Shown here piece after piece: positions 2,818 through 55,980 of a DNA stretch of 64,000 nt. Source of the stretch: Ypsolopha sequella (lineage: Eukaryota > Arthropoda > Insecta > Lepidoptera > Ypsolophidae). Position 1 is the stretch's first letter. The number at the start of each line of letters is the position of its first letter. Made by a program: the position numbers and the translations under genes. A model generated the notes under the pieces. That model was not told where the DNA came from. It saw only the letters and a list, made by a program, of their open reading frames with translations, and ran no database searches. The stretch spans positions 7,672,201 through 7,736,200 of the forward strand of contig OW204001.1 of assembly GCA_934047225.1 (NCBI GenBank), written 5' to 3'.

Positions 2818-3083
2818 ATACAAGGTGTAACAGAAAGGTGTAGCCATATTTGAAGAGCTTGTTCAGTCTATGGTTTAGAACAACTTTTACTATGGAACAA
2901 ATCATGTATATCGAAAAAAAAACTTACTTGCTTCATAGAAAAATGCAATGCCACTCGGCTGAAATGTATGGAAGAGCAGATTTTTTTTTTTGAGATTTCA
3001 GGGTTGGCTCCGTAGTAAAAGTTGTTCTATACCATTGACAGAATAAGCTCTTCAAAATATGGTTACACCTTTCTGTTACACAT
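2818..3083. mobile_element. MITE family B, copy 1
   Basis: About 265 bp with long inverted ends: GGTGTAACAGAAAGGTGTAG at left and CACCTTTCTGTTACAC at right. Other copies are at 21713-21970, 24192-24458 and 44797-45422. The arms read into AACAACTTTTACTATGGA and its complement, so most of the element folds back on itself. Confidence 0.85.
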
Positions 3084-10225: not shown

Positions 10226-10603
10226 CTATCTATATTTCCATGTACTTAAACAGACAGAGAGGTGGATAGAACGGTTCCTTGTGAATATATTTACCAAGTC
10301 CTTAGATATGTCAGAAAAAATGTTGAGTCTTTCCCAAGGCTTGGTAAGCAACATTGTAAGGAAACCAGAAATAAGCATAAACTGGCTTTTCCAAAAATCA
10401 GACTCGCTAAGGTGAGTACCTCTTTTGTAGGACATGGTATAAGATTTTACAATAAACTTCCAAAGGAGGTCCTTACTTTGTCAGAGAATAAGTTTAAACT
10501 GTATATTAAGCAGGGCCTATTGAAAAAGGCATATTATAAAATAAATGAATATTTGGATGATGGTGAAGCATGGTGTTACAGTGATAATGATAGTAAGTTA
10601 TAA
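10226..10603 (+). pseudogene. LINE ORF2 C-terminus (113-aa open part)
   Basis: The open frame from 10262 to 10603 has no host-gene context but reads like the extreme C-terminus of an insect non-LTR retrotransposon ORF2. Its order is KLAFPKIRLAKVS, FVGHGIRFYNKLPKE, then KFKLYIKQGLLKKAYYKI and YLDD before the stop. The core of the reverse transcriptase is absent, so this is a 5'-truncated copy, as expected of target-primed insertion. The same segment recurs at 55345-55520 with the stop pattern broken. The 3' UTR follows on the plus strand to about 11405. I am confident it is a LINE end but cannot name the clade. Confidence 0.65.
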
Positions 10604-11405
10604 TTTAATTAAATAGTATTATTTCTTAACTTATGATTCCTCTAAGGTGTAAACATTAATTGATTACAGACTGTAAAAGGAAAAGGACTATATGAGACAG
10701 GTAGACAAAGATATATATGTTTTTCTTTTTTTCATTAACCTGAATTCCTGCTGTCTTGTATTTTCTTATCCCTTGGTTAAAGTAGATATAAGTCATATAT
10801 TGTATAGCATAAGTTTTATGTTGAAAAAAAAGACATGATCTTGCTAAGTTTCTTGCCCTTCTTCTTAGCAAGACTAATCGAATGGGCGGAGGTAGGCATG
10901 TATTTATATATGTAACCTATTAGTATGTAGTATATAGGATGGGATTTGGTCGGCCGCCTGGATTCGTGCTGGGGGCTCGGTTGGTGATCATTGAACCTTG
11001 TTCCTGGGGCCGTATTTTTGAGTCGTTCGGGTTCGGTTCGCGTGCGGGAGTGTATGCCTGTCTCATCTTGCAAATGACAAGTTCTGATGTGCATCGTGGG
11101 ATGGGTGTGTGCTTTCGCGCGTGGGTTGGGAACGAGCGATTCGAGGGTGCGGCTCCTGGTCCCTGGCCGGGTCTCCGGTGTGGGTTCGGGCGGCTGATTG
11201 GATTTTACCTTGTATAATATATATTTTACCTATCATTTTAATCGTAAATATATTGCTACATAAATTAAATAAACCTTTAATTTAGTTCATGTACATTTAT
11301 TATTTTATTACATATATTTTCTTTATTAGATTAAATTTGACGTGTAAAAAGTGTATATATCTATACCTGCTTTGCAAAATAAACTATTTGAATTTGAATT
11401 TGAAT
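10604..11405 (+). mobile_element. LINE 3' UTR with simple-repeat tail
   Basis: Downstream of the truncated ORF2 the sequence matches 55520-55980 in order (CTTATGATTCCTCTAA, TTTCTTGCCC, AGGCATGTATTTATAT, TATCATTTTAATCG). It ends in a short TTGAAT-type tandem tail at about 11385-11405, typical of LINEs that end in a microsatellite. An inverted fragment of the same UTR is at about 32455-32530. Relative to the 55.8-kb copy this copy carries an additional, unusually G-rich segment at 10.94-11.21 kb, listed separately. Confidence 0.65.
10941..11206 (+). repeat. A-depleted hairpin in LINE 3' UTR; ADAR-like A-to-G signature
   Basis: Left arm 10941-11066 and right arm 11096-11206 pair around a loop of about 29 nt. 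I aligned four blocks by hand: 10941-10983 with 11164-11206, 11006-11029 with 11133-11156, 11032-11056 with 11106-11130, and 11057-11066 with 11096-11105. They total 102 positions and hold 49 mismatches. All 49 give G.U pairs in a plus-strand RNA and none gives an A.C mismatch. If every G.U was once A-U, 49 of 62 A-U pairs were converted, and the ancestral arm was about 61% AT, like its surroundings. Composition over 10941-11200 is A 26, C 54, G 102, T 78. A related MITE at 4256 keeps A where this copy has G. Transversions occur only at the GG/TT junction (11030-11031) and near 11001-11005, where the left arm has extra bases. The flanking LINE sequence is not affected. The 92-codon open frames here on both strands arise because loss of A removes stop codons. 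I infer enzymatic editing of the hairpin RNA before retrotransposition. Confidence 0.85.
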
Positions 11406-13762
11406 TTGAACGGTCGCCATTTCTATTCCCAAGGTCTATTGACTCGACTAATCGCATATAATACTACAGTTATTCTGTGGTAGAAGATTAGAATGTAATT
11501 TGCTACGTTGGGCAATTTTTTTGTGAATCTGGACGTAGAATAACTAGGGTGTAATTGTGTAAGAAAATCGTATTCATTTGACAGCTTAAGAGGAACCTTT
11601 ACGCCTGGATTTTTCTCAAGATTCATACAAAAGGTAAAAACTGAATGTGAATTCTACAGCATATATTCTTCTATTTTTTTTTCATAAGTTTTATCTAGCG
11701 ATATCAAAAAACGTCTCTATACAGGCCAAAACGAAAAATTTCATAAAACACCATCATAAAAGATGTCAGGATATCGTGAATATTGCCTCGTTTTTACGCA
11801 AAGTTTAGCAAGTTGCATAATTTTTATCTATACTGGAAATAAAAAAAGAGAGAAATATAGACGTCGTTCATGTAAAGAAGACCAAGTTTATACACTTTTC
11901 TATGAATAAACAGTTACCGTTTAATGGAAAACAGTTTTTACCTAAATCCATTTTACAAATTAGGTGCTTTTTTAATATCTTGTCATATTGCACCTCTTGA
12001 TAAGAGATGGATTGGAGTGCGGTGGGGGAGGAGGAAGGGAAACATATATAAAGATGTGTGCAAAGTTTCACTGAGATCAAAGCCATTAGGACGTCACTAT
12101 CACCTGAAGCATTTATATGGCAGCTGAGTGAGTGGGATGGTCCACCTTAAACGGATATTCGCTTAAGCAAATTAGCCAGTTTGACAATTGAAATCGTACG
12201 GTTTCGTCGAACGTTTCTTACACAATTCCAGGGCAGGAGTGTACGTAATAGATAAAGGTGAGAGTACACCCAAGTTTTCAAAATAACTCACCAAGTTTGA
12301 CATGAACAAGCGCCCTGCCTTTAGCCAAAGGAAGAAGGGCACGGAAGTTTTCTCGAAGCGTTTTGTCGTATTTTAGAACCCTCATAGCTTTGGTCTGGAT
12401 AATACTAGAGAACCCAAATTAGGATAAGGACTAGTTAGCGGACTAATGAAACAAGCTAAGTTAAGTTAGTCTAGTTTTTATACTTTAAATTTTATTAATA
12501 TCTAATTTACCTCAATTTCGTCACTCACTCACTCACTTATAAATTATAACATTTATAATATTTATAATTATAAATTTATAATATTTCATAGAGGTTTGAT
12601 GATTATAAGTTATAATCATCAAAACCTCTATAAAAACGAAAGAGAAACAAATTTATTTGCCATAAAAGAAGAAACAGTAGAACATAATATAAAATGGCAA
12701 AAAGGAACAAAGTCAGCAAAAGTTGAAGAAACTTGCAGCGCTAATTTTCAGTTTTTAAACACATTTTAAAACATAAAAAACAAAACACAAAATCAACCTC
12801 TATAGAGGTTACCTATCTATAGGGTACTTCCTGAAGTCCCGCAGAAAGCTGAAATTTGGTATGAAGGCACTGACAGAGCGCCACATCAACAGGGTCAATT
12901 GGTTCAATGTATGAGTCAGCAAGCCATATCTAATCGGTCATCGAAAACTCGCGTACTGTGACATGTTATGTAATTATGTAACTGCTGTAAAATTTTCAAC
13001 GACAAGTCCTGTTTAAAATTTACTGTATCGCAGAAAACTATCCATAGTTCCTAAACACAGGGTCTAGTGCCACAAATAATTAACAACATGTTCTCCTGAT
13101 TTCACTGAAAAACATGTGTCTTGCTATTTTTTAGTTTTAGTTTTAAGACTAATCAAAAGGCGCGATCGCGCTTCCTATTCTACTTCAATTGTAATCAAAA
13201 ATTTATACTTGAACGAGGTAAATATAGTGTGGGGAAAATACATAGAACAACACTAGTCTTTCTTGTCAGTAGATAATATGGTTTAAATTTGGAAGCAGGT
13301 CACAATACCTGGTATAAACAAACTGATTTATGACGTGTAGGACTTCTACTTCGGTCAGGCTATATCGCTCATTCACAGAATTCACCGTTATTTTAATCAG
13401 ATAATGATGTATTTTATCTCATCTCAGGATATCACACGATAAAAACTGTCCCGACTTTTTGGTATAGAGTTTAAATGAAATTTTTTGTGTAACCCAAATA
13501 ACATGAAAGGGCTACTGGACAAGACCACAAGTTGACTGAATTAGGTAACTAAACAAGCACCACCCAAGTTCGCAGCTTACCAGGTATCCAGGGCATTCTA
13601 ATTTCCTCCTTATGTCTGGTAGTATTAAAGTTGTAGGATGGTAGCAAGATAACTCAAACGCAGTCTTATTTATAGAAAAGATGATCGATTATGAATACTT
13701 TCAGGGTGCAGCTGAACAAAGATGATCGCTTACGAACGATTTTCCTCTACTGTGTTGTATCG
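11406..13762. other. Intergenic, one small hairpin
   Basis: About 2.3 kb without a recognisable gene. A near-perfect 22-bp hairpin sits at about 12588-12640 (ATAGAGGTTTTGATGATTATAA and its inverse). AT-rich tandem words (ATTTATAAT) lie at 12540-12590. No repeat here recurs elsewhere in the window. Confidence 0.5.
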
Positions 13763-14930
13763 GATAGTGATATGACAGAGGTTAGTGATGTAACAGAGGG
13801 TAGTGATGTGACAGAGGATAGTGATGTGACAGAGGATAGTGATGTGACAGAGGATAGTGATGTGACAGAGGATAGTGATGTGACAGAGGATAGTGATGTG
13901 ACAGAGGATAGTGATGTGACAGAGGATAGTGATGTGACAGAGGATAGTGATGTGACAGAGGATAGTGATGTGACAGAGGATAGTGATGTGACAGAGGATA
14001 GTGATGTGACAGAGGATAGTGATGTGACAGAGGATAGTGATGTGACAGAGGATAGTGATGTGACAGAGGATAGTGATGTGACAGAGGATAGTGATGTGAC
14101 AGAGGATAGTGATGTGACAGAGGATAGTGATGTGACAGAGGATAGTGATGTGACAGAGGATAGTGATGTGACAGAGGATAGTGATGTGACAGAGGATAGC
14201 GATGTGATAGAGGATAGCGATGTGACAGAGGATAGTGATGTGACAGAGGATAGTGATGTGACAGAGGATAGTGATGTGACAGAGGATAGTGATGTGACAG
14301 AGGATAGTGATGTGACAGAGGATAGTGATGTGACAGAGGATAGTGATGTGACAGAGGATAGTGATGTGACAGAGGATAGTGATGTGACAGAGGATAGTGA
14401 TGTGACAGAGGATAGTGATGTGACAGAGGATAGTGATGTGACAGAGGATAGTGATGTGACAGAGGATAGTGATGTGACAGAGGATAGTGATGTGACAGAG
14501 GATAGTGATGTGACAGAGGATAGTGATGTGACAGAGGATAGTGATGTGACAGAGGATAGTGATGTGACAGAGGATAGCGATGTGATAGAGGATAGCGATG
14601 TGACAGAGGTTAGTGATGTGACAGAGGTTAGTGATGTGACAGAGGGTAGTGATGTGACAGAGGATAGTGATGTGACAGAGGATAGTGATGTGACAGAGGA
14701 TAGTGATGTGACAGAGGATAGTGATGTGACAGAGGATAGTGATGTGACAGAGGATAGTGATGTGACAGAGGATAGTGATGTGACAAAGGATAGTGATGTG
14801 ACAGAGGATAGTGATGTGACAGAGGATAGTGATGTGACATAGGATAGTTATGTGACAGGATAGTGATGTGACAGAGGATAGTGATGAGACAGAGGATAGT
14901 GATGTGACAGAGGATAGTGATATGAAACAG
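13763..14930. repeat. 18-bp minisatellite, about 65 units
   Basis: The unit GATAGTGATGTGACAGAG is repeated head to tail for about 1.17 kb with very few variants. Because 18 is divisible by three, both strands stay open: the plus strand reads (DSDVTE)n over 383 codons and the minus strand (HITILC)n over 421. Rare variants (GATAGCGATGTGATAGAG) begin at 14195 and again at 14573, exactly 378 bp or 21 units apart. The GAGGTTAGTGATG / GAGGGTAGTGATG variants at the left edge recur near 14610-14650. This points to block duplication within the array. There is no promoter, splice or codon evidence that it is a gene. A 4-bp loss near 14850 breaks the frame near the right edge. Confidence 0.9.
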
Positions 14931-17193: not shown

Positions 17194-17571
17194 GTAAGTA
17201 CCTTTCCTACGTTATACCTTATACTTGACGTATACCTATTTCCTCGTATTATTGAGTAAATGTCACCTATTTTATCGATCAATGGAATCAAAAACCTTAA
17301 AACTTAATCCTTTTATGTCATATTGTCTCAACCTTAACACAATCGTATGAGGTAATAACAATAAACAATAATCAACGTAGGTATGATATTTGTAGTCCGG
17401 GAGACTACCGCATTTTTATCTACGATAATGAATACCTATCAACAATAGGTAATGATTCGAATTTTAATTTCTTTGCTGTAGGACCTATTTTTTGGATCTG
17501 CTTTTCTCAGTAAGTAAAGTATTATTTAAAAATAAAATAAAGAATCTTTAATCTGTTTTTACTTTTTACAG

Positions 17572-18864
17572 GTCGAAAATGACATGGAAAATTATATAAG
17601 GTACCGATTGATGGGTGGTCAACTAAGACTAAAAAAAGGAGTTCTGCCGCATAAATTTGACTGCCAAAGAAGGGATAACGCCGTTGTAGAACGGACTGGA
17701 TATAAAAAAAGACAGCAGATTGAGTACTTTGAAAGAGTGCTTAATCCGGAAGTTGGTCATGAAAACCTAATAACACAAGAAGAGTTCGTGGCGTGTGAAA
17801 CGATTGATTTTAATTCAAATGATACAGAGGCTATAAACCCGCTTGAAGAAGATAATGCGGCAAATCTACACAATGATCCTAAATATAAATCACTCGCAGT
17901 GCAAGTTAATATAAAGCCAAAAGTTCGAAGCAAGGGCATTAATACTGACGCCGGTTTTGACCGGGTTGAAGAGTTTGCTCTTAAAATAAAAACGGTGAAA
18001 CCAAAAGAACATCGTCGGGATCATCATCGGGAACCAATGCATGATAGCTTCACATCTTACTCTAATACCTCATCAGTTTCTGCGAGCCTAAGTGGATTCA
18101 GTGTAAATACTGACGCCTGTGAAATGAAACGACAAGTAGATACTGAGTTATTTAAGGAACACATGCAAAAAGGAACTTTAATGTCTATATCTAGAGAACC
18201 TAAGCTTTTTCTCGGATTACCATCGCAAGTGTATTTCTGTTTAGAATATTTGAGTGAATCTACTGAGAGACCTCTGATGGATGTATTATTGAGCTTGAAA
18301 AAACTGAGATGGCGTGAACCGAATTCCGTGCTTGCTGTTCAGTTTGGAGTTTCGGAATCTACAGTCGCCAGACATTTCAAAGAAACAATACCTAAGGTTG
18401 CTCAATGCATGGAGAAACTGATTTTTATTCCTCCTCGCGACGATATTCGCTCAAATCTTCCGATACCTTTTAGGAGGCGTTATTCAACAGTCGTCAGCAT
18501 CATAGATTGTTTAGAAATTCAAATCGAGAAACCTAGCTCAGCAGTACATCAGGCGCTGACGTGGTCACAATATAAAAATGCGAATACTATAAAATATCTA
18601 ATATCGATAACACCTAATGGACTTATAAACTTCATATCCGAAGGTTATGGAGGAAGGACATCGGACGCCCTTATCTTTGAAGACTGCGGTTTTCTTCAGA
18701 TGTTATCCCCCGGTGACGTAGTGATGGCTGATAGGGGATTTAAGAATATAGCTCATTTACTTGAACGTCAAGGTTGCAAACTTTTAAGGCCTCCTAGCGT
18801 TGATTCGGGATCAAAACTAAGTAAAGAAGAAGTTTTAGAAACTAAAAGAATAGCGGCCCTTTGA
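17572..18864 (+). CDS. THAP/DDE transposase, exon 2, ends at premature TGA
   Basis: The exon follows a clean acceptor (CTTTTTACAG) and continues the frame as VENDMENYIRYR. LKKGVLPHKF at residues 79-88 is the AVPTIF-like box that ends the THAP domain. A charged, low-complexity linker (about 95-245) follows. Residues about 300-335 (KKLRWREPNSVLAVQFGVS..) look like the helix-turn-helix that precedes DDE_Tnp_4 domains. The catalytic core shows IIDCLEI with Asp371 as first D, GGRTSD at 420-424, and MADRGF with Asp446 as second D. The frame stops at 18862-18864 after KRIAAL, four codons before the expected catalytic Glu. The 489-residue product therefore lacks the third acid and should be inactive. 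A sequencing error or stop-codon polymorphism is an alternative. Confidence 0.8.
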   Translation, partial: VENDMENYIRYRLMGGQLRLKKGVLPHKFDCQRRDNAVVERTGYKKRQQIEYFERVLNPEVGHENLITQEEFVACETIDFNSNDTEAINPLEEDNAANLHNDPKYKSLAVQVNIKPKVRSKGINTDAGFDRVEEFALKIKTVKPKEHRRDHHREPMHDSFTSYSNTSSVSASLSGFSVNTDACEMKRQVDTELFKEHMQKGTLMSISREPKLFLGLPSQVYFCLEYLSESTERPLMDVLLSLKKLRWREPNSVLAVQFGVSESTVARHFKETIPKVAQCMEKLIFIPPRDDIRSNLPIPFRRRYSTVVSIIDCLEIQIEKPSSAVHQALTWSQYKNANTIKYLISITPNGLINFISEGYGGRTSDALIFEDCGFLQMLSPGDVVMADRGFKNIAHLLERQGCKLLRPPSVDSGSKLSKEEVLETKRIAAL

Positions 18865-19074: not shown

Positions 19075-20251
19075 CTAAGTTTTGACCAATTTAGGAAAGA
19101 CTGAGTGTTTCCAAAAACTTGTTGACTTTTCCAAAAGATCTTTGCAGTAAATTTCATCAAAATCTTCTTCAAAGATTTCTACTTCTTTGTTAGCTTCAAA
19201 ATTCTTATCAGCAACACAAAAAAGCCCTTTAGTTTTGTTGCAAAAAAACATTTGCAGCTGGATTTGACCTTTTGATTTGTTTGTGAGACGATTATTTTTA
19301 ATAAAGCTTTCTTTGCCTTGTGTGGTCATGGGACATTTTATTTCTATGACATATTCTTGTGTTAAGCCATCAGGAGATGCACCTAAAATAGGCCAATCAC
19401 TTTTCAAAAACAGCCCACCATTTTCGATTACAAATTTTCTCAATTTTGCTACTTTTGCCCTAACATCAGGTTCCAGTACTTTGCCTCTTCGCATTGCAGG
19501 AGTTTCTGGTATGGTTGCACCGAATATTTGCTCAACTAATGAACCATCAGGGGTTTTGCAATGGGCGGCGTCGTGTATTTTTGACGCGGTTATTCTGCAA
19601 TATCGCATCTCATGCCATAAAGGAGACTGAGCTTGAGATAGAGTTTCTTGTTCTATTTTTGAACACTTTTCTGGTGTTTGTTTTGTTGTACAATAATCGA
19701 TGAAGCCTTGTGCACTGTTCGTGTCGTTACCTTCTTTTTTATAATCATTTATCAAGTTATGCAATGATAATTTCGTAAGTTCATTCTGTGTAACGTAACT
19801 TGTTAACTGAATCCTAATAGAATTTAACTGTATATTGTGCACCAGTTTGTTAAAAAATTGTTCACTTCTTACATTAGCGTTATCGTCAATATCTCCAGCG
19901 CTGGAACCGATATCTTTGGCTTTTATAAATTTCAAGGTTGTGCCCACTGTGGCCAGTTTTGGTTTGGCCCAATAACATTTTTTTTCAGTTGGAGAAGGCT
20001 CTTCACTGCGTCTGTGTATCCACATAAGAAATGCTACACTATGTTTGCAACCTCCTTTTTGTGCAGCACAATCATGACAAGTAACATCAATAATAGTTTT
20101 ATCATTTTCTTCACATTTGAGAGTGCAGCTATAACCTTTAGTTTTTACTTTATGCTCCGGTGTTATTCTTGCCTTTACTGTGCACACATTTCCATTTCTT
20201 TGGACTTGGACATACCCTACGGCATCGTCGCCATATGACTCTCGTACAGAC
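19075..20251 (-). CDS. YqaJ-like nuclease of ISL2EU element, exon 2
   Basis: Carries residues 48-438 of a 438-residue protein. The acceptor is TTATTACAG at 20252-20260, and the joined codon completes Arg47. Near the start is a zinc motif C105-x2-C108-x6-C115-x-H117, a SWIM-like finger thought to bind nucleic acid. The nuclease core is of the PD-(D/E)xK fold as in the phage lambda exonuclease/YqaJ family. Glu307 lies in RRGKVLEP, Asp341 in GASPDG, and Glu350 with Lys352 in VIEIKCP. A QIQLQM helix (about 376-381) follows. All expected metal-binding residues are present and the frame is intact, in contrast to the partner transposase. The protein is thought to assist transposition or end processing, but its exact role in ISL2EU elements is not established. 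Confidence 0.85.
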
Positions 20252-20660
20252 CTGTAATAATCATACAGCATTAAATACCTACATCACATTACCTGATGCG
20301 GTTGCACCATTTAAGTGAATCGAAACAAAAAACATGGTAGGTATCCGCTAATGTTAGTTAATCTACGGCGCGCTCCCGGTCTATAATGTTTAGGTGAACT
20401 TGAAACCGGCACTTACTAAATCGCAATGAATCATGCCTGCAGTTGCCTGCTTACAAAAACATCAACTCGAACTCCGTAGGAAGAAATAATGTAGGTACTT
20501 GACTTGACTAACGTTTTTATGATGGAGTGTGTTATGCTGTCCATGTACCTTTTTACCCAGGTTATTTTATTATTTTCACATTACCTACCGCAACAGCCAT
20601 GGGAAAAAGTACCTAGGCCTAAACTCACTAACTAACACATTAAATTTGGTAGGTACTTAC

Positions 20661-31777: not shown

Positions 31778-33265
31778 TCTATTGTCAATCACATGTCGCG
31801 TCGCGTAAGTAAGCCATTTATTCTAAATATAGCAAATATTCCCAATGAAAGATATAAGAAAAAGAAACAGTTTTTTTACGATTCTGTGTTCTATCAGTGT
31901 TTCTGATTCATATATTTCAATATAGCTAGAGGTTTCATTTTCAACCTGTATAAGGGCAAGTTTGATTGAAAGACACTATATAGATCTAAGACACGTGCTA
32001 GATAGACCTCCTGTTCTGGTTCATGAAAAAGATAGCTCACAGTAAAATGAATTAAATGCAGTACTTTTAGTAAGCGCGTGAAGGATTGTATGAATATGAA
32101 CTGTAAGCAATTTGTAGTCTCAATCGGACTGCGAGAGATAATAAGTAATAACACAGGCGAAAGTTGCAATTTTATAAAAATTGAAATGAAATTATATATA
32201 TTTATTTATGTAATGTAGGTATAACAGATACACTTATTACAGGTCAGTTTTTATGTGATATCAGTAATTAAATAATCTTTGTGTATAGGTAATAGTTTTA
32301 TGTCAGAAATAATAATATGGGGAAATACGCAGGAGAATAATAAAGTTTGGTTTTACTTAAATTTAATAAAAAAAATACGGTTGAATAAAATAAAAATATA
32401 GGAATAAGGAATAAATAATATTATAAATATATGTAATACATATAATAAGTATAAGCCTAACGCCGCCCATTCGATTAGTCTTGCTAAGAAGAAGGGCAAG
32501 AAACTTAGCTAGATCATGTCTTTTTTTTCATAATATTGGCACAGATAATATAAGTTACAACTAAAAATGGCCAGAACATCGCTGTTTTATACATAGATAG
32601 ATATTCTTCCCACCTCTCACTTCTTGTAATGTTCTGTGCTTCTTGTACCCCAGTGAAGATCTCCCTCCACAAACTTCCTTGCGTAACCGTGAGGGATCTC
32701 TGCTAATTTTGAGGTCTACGGCACCACCAGTCGCACAGTTATAGGTAGGGTTGAAAAAAAAACAGTTATTTTTAAAATAATCATGCTTAGAACAAAAAAA
32801 ACGTATTCTAAACATAAAATTGACTACTTAATGTTTTTATGGAATTGTTTTAAAAACATGTTTAAAACCCGTTTTTGGATGTCGTTTTTTTATAATAGGT
32901 TGGTATGATTGTATGATTGGTATGATTGGACAGATTAAAAAGATCAATTAGAAACAAATTACAAGCAATACAAATAGATATATTGAAAAAAAATCTTCCG
33001 ATTACTTGGTGTTTGTTTTAAATTGATCTTTTCTATCTTCTCTATTGAAATATTTAGTGTTTCCAAAACCAATGGACTTCACAATAAATATAATAAATCT
33101 GTCTTTGATTGAATACAAAAGCCGTGTTCAAAAATGTATAATCAAAATAATAGGTTGCTTATCTATCTTCTACTTACTTTTAGGATGCGTTCGGTAAACA
33201 CGATGCGTTCGATAAAAGAAATTTAAACATTGTTTAAAACAATGCCAACCCTGGTTACGGCACGT
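31778..33265. repeat. Intergenic; inverted LINE 3'-UTR fragment at 32455-32530
   Basis: Read on minus, the 32455-32530 part carries ATCTAGCTAAGTTTCTTGCCC and CAAGACTAATCGAATGGGCG, matching the LINE 3' UTR at 10845-10890. The remainder is AT-rich and shows no gene. A minus-strand 84-codon frame at 32561-32815 is not supported. Confidence 0.45.
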
Positions 33266-37382: not shown

Positions 37383-37860
37383 CCCTTCTATTATGTATCT
37401 TTGGTTGCCAACTGGACTGGGTGCCTATCATCAAAAACATAGACAAAATATAAACTTTCAAAATTGCCTTAAGTGGGTATTGAATCATTTTGGAACTGTT
37501 AGTGCGAACACATCCTTAGACAATCGGAATTCGGTACTATACAAGGTGACTTTTTGATCATCGTCCAAATTCATACTGGTGGCTTGGTAAGTGATTAGTA
37601 TCATGCATAAATAAAAATTTTGGTGAAATTCGTAAAATGAAATTTTGACTCCCCATAGTGATTCACTCGGGACTGGAACTGAATTTCGGGAAGCCGAAAT
37701 TTTATTTTACGAATTTCACAAAAATTGTTACTGATCCAAAATACTGATCACTTATCAAGCCCCCAGTATGAATTTGGACGATGATCAAAAAGTCACTTTG
37801 TACTTATATGTGTTTTTGATGACAGGCACCTAGTCCAGTTGACAACTTAAGATAATAGGC
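37383..37860. mobile_element. MITE family C, copy 3, split by MITE A
   Basis: TATTATGTATCTTTGGTTGCC at left and CAACTTAAGATAATAGG at right. The element is interrupted by a complete MITE A at 37541-37802. Confidence 0.75.
37541..37802. mobile_element. MITE family A, copy 2 (nested)
   Basis: Begins TACAAGGTGACTTTTTGATC and ends GATCAAAAAGTCACTTTGTA. Its insertion into MITE C gives the order of events. About 255-262 bp in both copies. Confidence 0.85.
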
Positions 37861-51461: not shown

Positions 51462-52397
51462 TCAAGCATAAGTGAGGGAAGTAAAGGCGCGCGGCACGGA
51501 CTGTGGAGGTGCACTGTGCCTCTGTACACCGGCTGCACACGAGATACCGCCATCCGTGCCGCGCGCCACGGCTTCGAAAAATTGCCTCAGGTCACTAACG
51601 GACCTTGAAGGAGGTGCTTGAAGGTCATGAAGGGAAGCTGCCCGTCTCGGCGTCAAAATTGTCTCAGAGATCTTTGCGGGTGGAGCCAGTTGCTCACTAC
51701 TCCGAACTAGGGTCCCACCGGTCTGTGTCATAGACTCAAATATCGCCCGTCGTTCACGGACTGGTATATATTGTGCAATAGCTTCATGTGTATTGGGGGA
51801 ACACGATCGTGCCCTGCTCTCCAGTGAGGACGTCTTCCGCCGTGCCGCTTCGAGCGCGTACCGGCCCCGCTCTGCCCCTCTTTCCGACCCCTCCCATCGT
51901 TTTAAGTAACGATGCCGACCTTGCTCTAATTCAACAGTTCTCGCCGCTCGCGGCAACGTGTGATGTTGTTGCGCACCCGCATTCAATTTGCTGCAATTGT
52001 CGCATTTGACAATGTCAGCTGTCCTGACGGGCGCATCGACCACATCCGTGGTCTTTGGAGCGTCGAGGGATAATGAAAGATCAAGGCTGCGATCGGACGA
52101 TGAGTCGTAGTCGTCGTCTTCGACGACGATGCCCTCATCCGTAGCGGCTGGGGAGTGATCTCTGAGTGGTAACTGAGTTTCTGTTGAAGACGTCAGTAAC
52201 CTCCGCCGCGCTCTCGGCGGTGGTCTAGGCGGACAGGTAGGGGTCTCTTGCTGAGGTGTCTCTTTCTTTGGTTTCTTGCTGGCTGTGTCAGCGGCGGGTA
52301 ACACGTCCAAAAATCGGACTTGTGGTAATGGCGTCTGACGGAGGATTTCAACGCAGAGAGCGCGAACCCAACGAGCGTACTCAGTCGCATTGCAAGC
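51462..52397 (-). CDS. PH-domain protein, exon 3 (terminal)
   Basis: Encodes residues 116-426 and the stop. The exon starts after TTGTTGCAG in phase 0. It begins ACNATEYARWVRALCVEILR, the C-terminal helix of a PH domain with its invariant tryptophan (W125), and then PQVRFLDVLPAA. The rest is mostly disordered: a Pro/Arg-rich basic stretch (CPPRPPPRARRR), an acidic Ser/Asp stretch (VVEDDDYDSSSDRS), and short segments that look conserved (IAQYIPVRERRAIFESM, SDLRQFF). Codon use is GC-rich compared with the surrounding AT-rich DNA, which supports real coding sequence. PH domains bind phosphoinositides or proteins at membranes. I do not recognise the family beyond that. Confidence 0.85.
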   Translation of the reverse strand, partial: ACNATEYARWVRALCVEILRQTPLPQVRFLDVLPAADTASKKPKKETPQQETPTCPPRPPPRARRRLLTSSTETQLPLRDHSPAATDEGIVVEDDDYDSSSDRSLDLSLSLDAPKTTDVVDAPVRTADIVKCDNCSKLNAGAQQHHTLPRAARTVELEQGRHRYLKRWEGSERGAERGRYALEAARRKTSSLESRARSCSPNTHEAIAQYIPVRERRAIFESMTQTGGTLVRSSEQLAPPAKISETILTPRRAASLHDLQAPPSRSVSDLRQFFEAVARGTDGGISCAAGVQRHSAPPQSVPRAFTSLTYA

Positions 52398-53210
52398 CTG
52401 CAACAATAGAGAAAATAAAGTATTGAGTATATATGATGTATATTCCCTATAATATGGTCATTTATGAACATTTTAATTTGAATAACTTGCTAGCTTAACT
52501 AACAAAGAGATACGAATGTCTTTAGAAAAACATCAAGAGTGATGAGAAAAAATATGACATCTGATCTGATCTGCAGATTCTCTAAGAACTTTAACAACAT
52601 ACTAGGCAAACTTATAGGGACCGCCTCTTCACAAAACGTGTTTCTTTACTTGTCGACACCTTCGCGCATCTAGCCCTTCTTATGATAAATAGCCACATAA
52701 AAAGATTACTCAGTACAAAAGATGATGATTTACGGTTGTTGCATTATATTGAGGCCTACTAAAGTGAGCAAAACGTGAGAAAAATGGGTCTTAAAAGGGC
52801 TTCAACGTCATGAAAGGCGCTTGGTGACCTCTAAAGGTTAAAATTGGTTACTTATAAAAAGTCCGTTGGCGTTTTTTATTATCCTAGATAAAACGGTTCA
52901 AGTTTTAGATTAATAATACCACGTGTTTAAATTTAGAAATGCGACTCACATGTGCTTTTGATCATCTTAATATTCCATTTAGTTGTCGCAGGTATGTTGT
53001 ATTTATTTATCGGTTACAATATTTACGGCATATTCACAGTTTAAATTAATATTTATTTATGGATCTATTGTTTTAGCTGGACAATAACTAGTGACCGTAT
53101 ACGTGACCACGGTAAATTATTATCTTACATTGTCTCTTTAATCAGTACCTATCAGGCTTTCAATTTGTTAATTAAAGTTAATCCAACATGGAACAATTTC
53201 TTAAGAGCAT

Positions 53211-55344: not shown

Positions 55345-55980
55345 GAAATTTATATATTACAATAAACTTCCAAAGAAGGTACCTACTTTGTCAGAGAATA
55401 ATTTTAAATTGTAAATTAAGTAGGGCCTACTGAAAAAGGCATATTATAAAATAAATGATTATTTGGATGATGGTGAAGCATGGAGTTATAGTGATATTTG
55501 TCATAATTTAGTACGTATAATTTCCTAACTTATGATTCCTCTAAAGAGTTAAGATAAATTAATGACGGACTATAAAAGGAAATGGCCTATATGAGGCAAA
55601 TAGACTAAGATATAATATATATATATTTATTATATAAGTACTTTGTATAGTATGTAACAGAAATTATAAAAAAAAGAAGGAAAAATGAAAAATGCTAAAA
55701 TGAAAAATGAAAAAAGGAAAAATGCTTAAAAAAATGAATTGATCTTGCTAGGTTTCTTGCCCAGTTAGGCATGTATTTATATAATGTAATTATGTATGTA
55801 GCATATAATTATAGATTTTACCAATCATTTGAATCGTTTATATATACATTCCTGCATAAATTAAATATAGGTACTTACCTTTAATTTAGTTTACATATGT
55901 ACATTTATTATTTTATTAAACATACCTATATTTATACGATTAAACCTACTTTACACAATAAATTATTTGAATTTGAATAG
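55345..55980 (+). pseudogene. LINE 3' end, copy 2 (in intron 1)
   Basis: Carries FYNKLPKKVPTLSENNFKL, then stops, then GLLKKAYYKINDYLDDGEA, and the 3' UTR to a TTTGAATTTGAATAG tail. It matches 10425-11405 without the G-rich hairpin. It lies antisense to the PH-domain gene. It is the control that shows the flanking LINE sequence of the 10-kb copy has ordinary, mixed differences. Confidence 0.65.

Follow-up and report, generated by a model that had tools for sequence, protein, structure and literature searches.

A LINE family in the genome of the moth Ypsolopha sequella (866.8 Mb) carries a palindromic MITE in its 3' UTR, and the stem formed by this MITE has changed in one direction, from A to G, and on one strand only. 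We put the probability at about 85% that recurrent ADAR-type editing of LINE RNA produced these changes, which were fixed by retrotransposition and inherited by later copies; ADAR as the enzyme, LINE RNA as the substrate, and reverse transcription as the writing step are what we infer from the pattern. RNA edits are normally lost with the RNA, and here they were apparently written into genomic DNA several times and multiplied. The family may thus hold a time-ordered trace of an insect LINE forming dsRNA and encountering an editing enzyme, and with it the question whether editing benefits or damages a retrotransposon becomes open to test. The analysis concerns a stretch of 64,000 nucleotides (C18:7672201-7736200; hereafter the window) together with related copies across the same genome.

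The hairpin lies within a 5'-truncated LINE copy (Table 1). Homology to P0001, which we take to be a LINE C-terminus (56% over 101 aa), starts immediately 3' of the first GAACGGT, and a Pfam search of the truncated frame found no domain. GAACGGT occurs four times on the plus strand of the window, and only 4-7 bases of the duplication are informative because its GAA overlaps the 3' tail. The stretch 10276-11407 combines a target-site duplication, 5' truncation, a 3' repeat tail, a LINE coding end, and many copies, as non-LTR retrotransposons do. Since duplication, tail, and truncation are all present, the hairpin was part of an RNA-mediated insertion. A second, more diverged LINE copy on the plus strand (55354-55978, with the LINE match at 55354-55614) lacks the hairpin, and within 55755-55850 it matches the joined flanks of 10935-11212. 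Inverted repeats, a TA duplication, this precise empty site, and many copies identify the insert as a MITE, which bears out the first-pass annotation of this DNA in describing a fold-back MITE inside a plus-strand LINE. A third LINE copy, at 32178-32530 on the minus strand, is likewise more diverged and without a hairpin.

Table 1. Features of the LINE copy and its hairpin (window positions)
Feature	Position	Strand	Basis
5' target-site duplication GAACGGT of the LINE insertion	10269..10275	+	identical 7-mer at 11408-11414
C-terminal end of the LINE reading frame, 5'-truncated copy	10276..10600	+	P0001 match, E 1.6e-30
LINE 3' UTR left of the MITE	10601..10934	+	compared with the MITE-free copy in 55756-55812
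MITE forming the candidate edited hairpin, 278-base palindromic	10935..11212	+	TA at 10933-10934 and 11213-11214; empty site elsewhere
Outer left arm, first layer of A>G changes	10936..10990	+	arm pairing and comparison of copies
Unpaired stretch between outer and inner stems	10991..11005	+	comparison of forms
Inner left arm, second layer of A>G changes	11006..11075	+	A retained in form M, G in form Y
Inner right arm, pairs with 11006-11075	11087..11156	+	arm pairing and comparison of copies
Outer right arm, pairs with 10936-10990	11157..11211	+	arm pairing and comparison of copies
LINE 3' UTR right of the MITE	11215..11407	+	(ATTTGA)n tail at 11386-11410
3' target-site duplication GAACGGT	11408..11414	+	same 7-mer as 10269-10275

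The two strands of this hairpin differ sharply in predicted folding. Plus-strand RNA of 10920-11230 is predicted to fold at -176.2 kcal/mol (z -14.1), a value equalled by none of 100 shuffles, whereas the minus strand reaches an ordinary -60.8 kcal/mol (z -0.98). Among 638 sliding 300-base stretches of the window, the largest strand difference, 102.6 kcal/mol, falls on the hairpin; outside it, the standard deviation is 11.6 and the maximum 44.4 kcal/mol, the latter in an 18-base tandem repeat. When the arms are aligned without favouring G.U, the two gapless blocks (outer arms and inner arms in Table 1) contain 125 pairs: 67 Watson-Crick, 51 G.U, 1 A.C, and 6 others. The imbalance of 51 against 1 has a p of about 2e-14, and 12 scoring schemes with symmetrically scored transitions returned 50-52 G.U-type differences and a single A.C-type difference each time. 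The first-pass annotation had counted 49 differences at 102 positions, all of the G.U type; the excess stands, but seven of the differences are of other kinds. Its base composition (A26 G102 T78 C54 over 260) becomes A27 G103 T82 C54 over the 266 bases of 10941-11206. Its expectation that neutral decay would yield A.C pairs in balance agrees with the remaining inverted-repeat segments of the window (n=53, some overlapping), which under the same scan sum to 141 G.U and 136 A.C. Because decay elsewhere in the window is symmetric, ordinary decay is ruled out as the source of the hairpin mismatches. One further repeat (434-483 with 2951-3000) was considered as a second case; with 9 G.U, 1 A.C, and p 0.02 among 55 segments, it most likely reflects chance. 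In the hairpin, 51 of 72 paired A positions (71%) are converted. G is already the majority base of five free MITE copies at 3-4 of the 51 sites, which leaves about 47 candidates for A>G change. The LINE flank outside the MITE holds two additional G.U pairs, at 10923 and 10927. G.U-only inverted repeats offer a simple scan for other cases.

The LINE family that carries the edited hairpin is abundant. A search of the moth's own genome gave 42 matches from the best 40 scored of 1,824 candidates; 40 were long and 98-100% identical, hairpin included. A pattern for the edited outer left arm, allowing up to 3 mismatches in 44 bases and therefore missing more diverged copies, was found at no fewer than 8,512 places (4,257 + 4,255), with none for the reversed-pattern control. 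These copies bear directly on the proposal of the first-pass annotation that a LINE transcript was hyper-edited in one event and then retrotransposed to this site. Such an event would leave A>G changes specific to one strand and one insertion bounded by its target-site duplication, yet 39 further copies, taken from the best matches, carry 45-51 of the 51 G states, the edited outer arm is common to those thousands of places, and the outer and inner blocks changed at different times. The single event in the window copy is refuted, and we give it almost no credence. Fixation by retrotransposition, another element of the proposal, remains the probable route. A master copy elsewhere with equally G-rich arms had been named beforehand as grounds for refutation; the presence of such copies shifts the editing to earlier times in the LINE family, where it would have taken at least two steps plus later additions.

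The comparison drew on five free MITEs, which are loci without a LINE match (L056, L060, L068, L076, and L077), on 20 form M copies, in which LINE sequence is present at the MITE, and on 40 young form Y copies, which are the best matches to the window rather than a random sample. L055 and L072-L075 were excluded from the free MITE and M sets owing to gaps or an incomplete LINE flank, and L002-L008 are duplicates of L009-L015. At the 51 G sites of the window, G is present at 3-6 in free MITEs, 20-27 in form M, and 45-51 in form Y. By majority base, the step from free MITE to M comprises 22 A>G and 2 other changes among 110 outer-arm positions, no A>G and 1 other change among 140 inner-arm positions, and 3 changes, one of them A>G, among 28 unpaired positions; the LINE flank was left out of this comparison because the sequences there are not homologous. 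The step from M to Y comprises, among the 140 inner-arm positions, 22 A>G in lineage A, 23 in lineage B, and 3 others; 3 of 110 outer-arm positions changed (one A>G), along with 0 of 28 unpaired positions and 1 of 142 in the near LINE flank. Over the wider flank, M and Y majority bases differ at 7 of 506 columns, which is more than the near flank suggests and counts against the editing reading. The flanks of individual M copies differ pairwise by a median of 13.9%, which marks these copies as old; the figure for Y is 0.4%. Within Y, lineage A has 31 copies and lineage B 8 copies with the window. Seven of 420 positions separate the lineages; each is an A/G difference in the inner arms, with A in form M. 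They have 20 edits in common, of 22 in A and 24 in B by this count, and therefore one joint burst preceded their divergence. These layered states and copy numbers show that the A>G process acted in layers whose products were inherited by later LINE copies. However, the inner palindrome of form M has only 0-2 G of 44 in each of the 20 copies while the outer stem is edited; this is unexplained and counts against the editing reading if both stems were in one RNA.

The commonest form, S, lacks the inner palindrome. On contig 1, places were taken in list order, and 40 of the 41 are form S, 37 by gapped alignment and 3 by reading; the remaining place (C1:4751414, L036) is form Y. The inner palindrome occurs at a minimum of 182 places by a pattern count that misses more diverged copies. 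Its boundaries are TCCTGG repeats, so form S may be the product of template jumps across the stem. In a tree of LINE flanks from 55 copies, forms S and M are mixed at all depths. Neither the best 40 scored of 1,608 candidates nor 78 pattern places included a LINE copy whose outer arm is fully unedited, so the starting state is known from free MITEs only; L138, considered as an unedited MITE inside a LINE, was rejected because it reads as a free MITE. L118, a LINE copy of form S, retains A in its outer left arm at three sites that are edited in other copies, and it is either an intermediate of the first layer or a product of reversals.

Change at the inner sites extends into the youngest copies. 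Among the 40 Y copies, 14 of 44 inner A sites are polymorphic, 12 of them by A/G. The corresponding figures are 9 of 117 for the remaining inner positions, 9 of 117 for outer arms plus loop, and 43 of 510 for the LINE flank; counts for 10276-10599 were disregarded because truncated copies align badly there. The inner region forms 12 haplotypes, and four-gamete conflicts at 24 of 66 site pairs indicate that the same sites changed repeatedly or that recombination took place. Across 84 of the 182 places with the inner palindrome, a single 7-base stretch shows at least 12 A/G states.

The direction of change can be read from relatives. After G-to-A reversion, the hairpin matches MITE relatives in the window, and neither the original nor the C-restored (T to C) hairpin finds one there. 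At 45 alignable G.U sites, the relatives have A 32, G 9, T 3, and C 1 times. These comparisons uphold the A>G direction on the LINE sense strand that the first-pass annotation had claimed. Deamination of C to T, or RIP-like mutation, of the plus strand would likewise leave only G.U pairs in a hairpin, and at 47 partner sites the relatives do have C at 7; at 36, they have T. Moreover, A>G changes number 22 and then 22-23 along the path from free MITE through M to Y, with one C>T per step, each in the outer arms, so that the clustered C>T named beforehand as contrary evidence was not seen. Dominance of C>T or G>A, as expected of APOBEC or RIP, was sought in the hairpin and not found. The outgroups refute the C>T direction, and its probability is close to nil. 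Confinement to the stem, also claimed at first pass, likewise holds: set against the MITE-free copy, neither LINE flank has a surplus of A>G (44 aligned positions on the left with 0 A>G, and 157 on the right with A>G 2 and G>A 1), and unpaired positions are nearly unchanged. Clustered A>G of a single polarity on the LINE sense strand, restricted to predicted double-stranded RNA, is the mark of ADAR hyper-editing. Slow A>G drift, with selection keeping the RNA stem and tolerating G.U without an editing enzyme, would accommodate the sites that vary singly among young copies. Such drift should also produce C>T on the other side, and the inner block changed at 22 sites against 1 of 142 in the near flank; we consider it very improbable.

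Avoidance of A preceded by G is the best-known ADAR preference, and this depletion is absent here (14 of 49 edited versus 6 of 21 retained, p 1.0). Other marks do appear in a series of neighbour tests, several in number and chosen after inspection of the data. Inner A's that turned to G are paired in the predicted fold of form M in 27 of 28 cases versus 11 of 16 for unchanged ones (p 0.018), positions no more than 2 bases from a helix break carry G less often (6 of 15 versus 45 of 57, p 0.008), and A before T is spared (12 of 49 edited versus 14 of 21 retained, p 0.0012), in line with a 3' preference against U. Paired changed A's, spared A's at helix breaks, and spared A's before T fit ADAR, and the 5'-G result does not; the neighbour preferences that the first-pass annotation proposed to examine are thus present on the 3' side and missing on the 5' side. 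Because 5'-G avoidance is absent, the process is classed as ADAR-type by mechanism, with ADAR itself as the putative enzyme. The same result speaks for some non-ADAR process that depends on dsRNA, for instance misreading of A by reverse transcriptase in strong stems, where its errors could also be stem-limited. The sparing of A's before T and near helix breaks fits ADAR, and we know of no reverse-transcriptase error that gives A>G alone at such density; we regard this process as unlikely. The available portion of one report gives the 3' neighbour order G > C~A > U for human ADAR1, which the sparing of A before T matches, and an editing completion of 40-50% for long dsRNA (PMC11019741). The conversion of 71% observed here exceeds that range and counts against ADAR, an excess that layered rounds would explain.

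Under recurrent ADAR-type editing, a palindromic MITE would have inserted itself in the 3' UTR of a lepidopteran LINE, and LINE transcripts would then have carried a long intramolecular double-stranded hairpin. Paired A's of the sense RNA would have been deaminated to inosine by an ADAR-type enzyme, reverse transcription would have written G at the edited positions, and some edited copies would have become sources of later ones. The layers suggest that the outer stem was affected first, the inner stem later, and then single sites repeatedly in the youngest subfamily. Successive rounds might also act as a ratchet, in which editing weakens or disguises the dsRNA hairpin, permitting escape from RNA interference or easier reverse transcription, and edited masters replace unedited ones. 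We offer this idea tentatively and think it more doubtful than probable. Its sole basis is the predicted fold energies: restoring the A's lowers the predicted value for the plus strand from -166.2 to -196.9 kcal/mol and that for the minus strand from -60.0 to -199.5 kcal/mol. Within the ratchet idea, loss of the inner palindrome in form S would be the other way out.

Several known systems resemble parts of this case. In the Drosophila sigma virus, the accessible text describes A-to-G hypermutation that is clustered on one strand, polarised by outgroups, and attributed to ADAR, again in an insect (PMC2790459); it concerns RNA virus isolates, names no genomic DNA copy, and reports the 5'-G avoidance that the moth LINE lacks. 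A review, as far as its available sections go, names A-to-G hyperediting in the avian retroviruses RAV-1 and avian leucosis virus, which are also reverse-transcribing elements (PMC8586724). Those viruses are exogenous, whereas here a genomic non-LTR element is concerned whose edited forms are inherited by later copies. APOBEC editing likewise leaves a deaminase signature in retroelement DNA, but as G>A rather than A>G in RNA stems, and the excerpted account treats ADAR as RNA editing (PMC2873906). Intramolecular Alu pairs in human transcripts are repeat hairpins that serve as editing substrates, with the edits described in RNA in the portion at hand (PMC526178). LINE-1 inhibition by ADARs is stated to be independent of editing in the available part of a further review (PMC6757416). 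The open-licence literature, with its partial coverage, yielded no genomic LINE family built on fixed ADAR edits.

Other features of the window were recorded alongside the hairpin. A search of phage records and viral contigs gave no match. Two copies of a related palindromic MITE with TACAAGGTGACTTTTTGATC ends (1139-1396 and 37540-37802) are 91% alike, and their G.U and A.C arm differences are balanced. An open frame at 17536-18864 with DDE_Tnp_4 and HTH_Tnp_4 domains is a DNA transposase, and a 402-aa frame on the minus strand (19075-20283) has a YqaJ-like recombinase domain. The minus-strand stretch 51462-52457, in which a Pfam search found no domain, is a conserved lepidopteran coding stretch: 48 of 49 protein matches are 61-83% identical over 62-98%, some are named PH domain-containing, and the organism names, where given, are those of moths and butterflies, which makes the host lepidopteran. 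The tandem repeat at 13762-14925 consists of approximately 65 copies of the 18-base unit GGATAGTGATGTGACAGA, is strongly G-rich on one strand, and is open on the plus strand as a repeated SDVTED frame.
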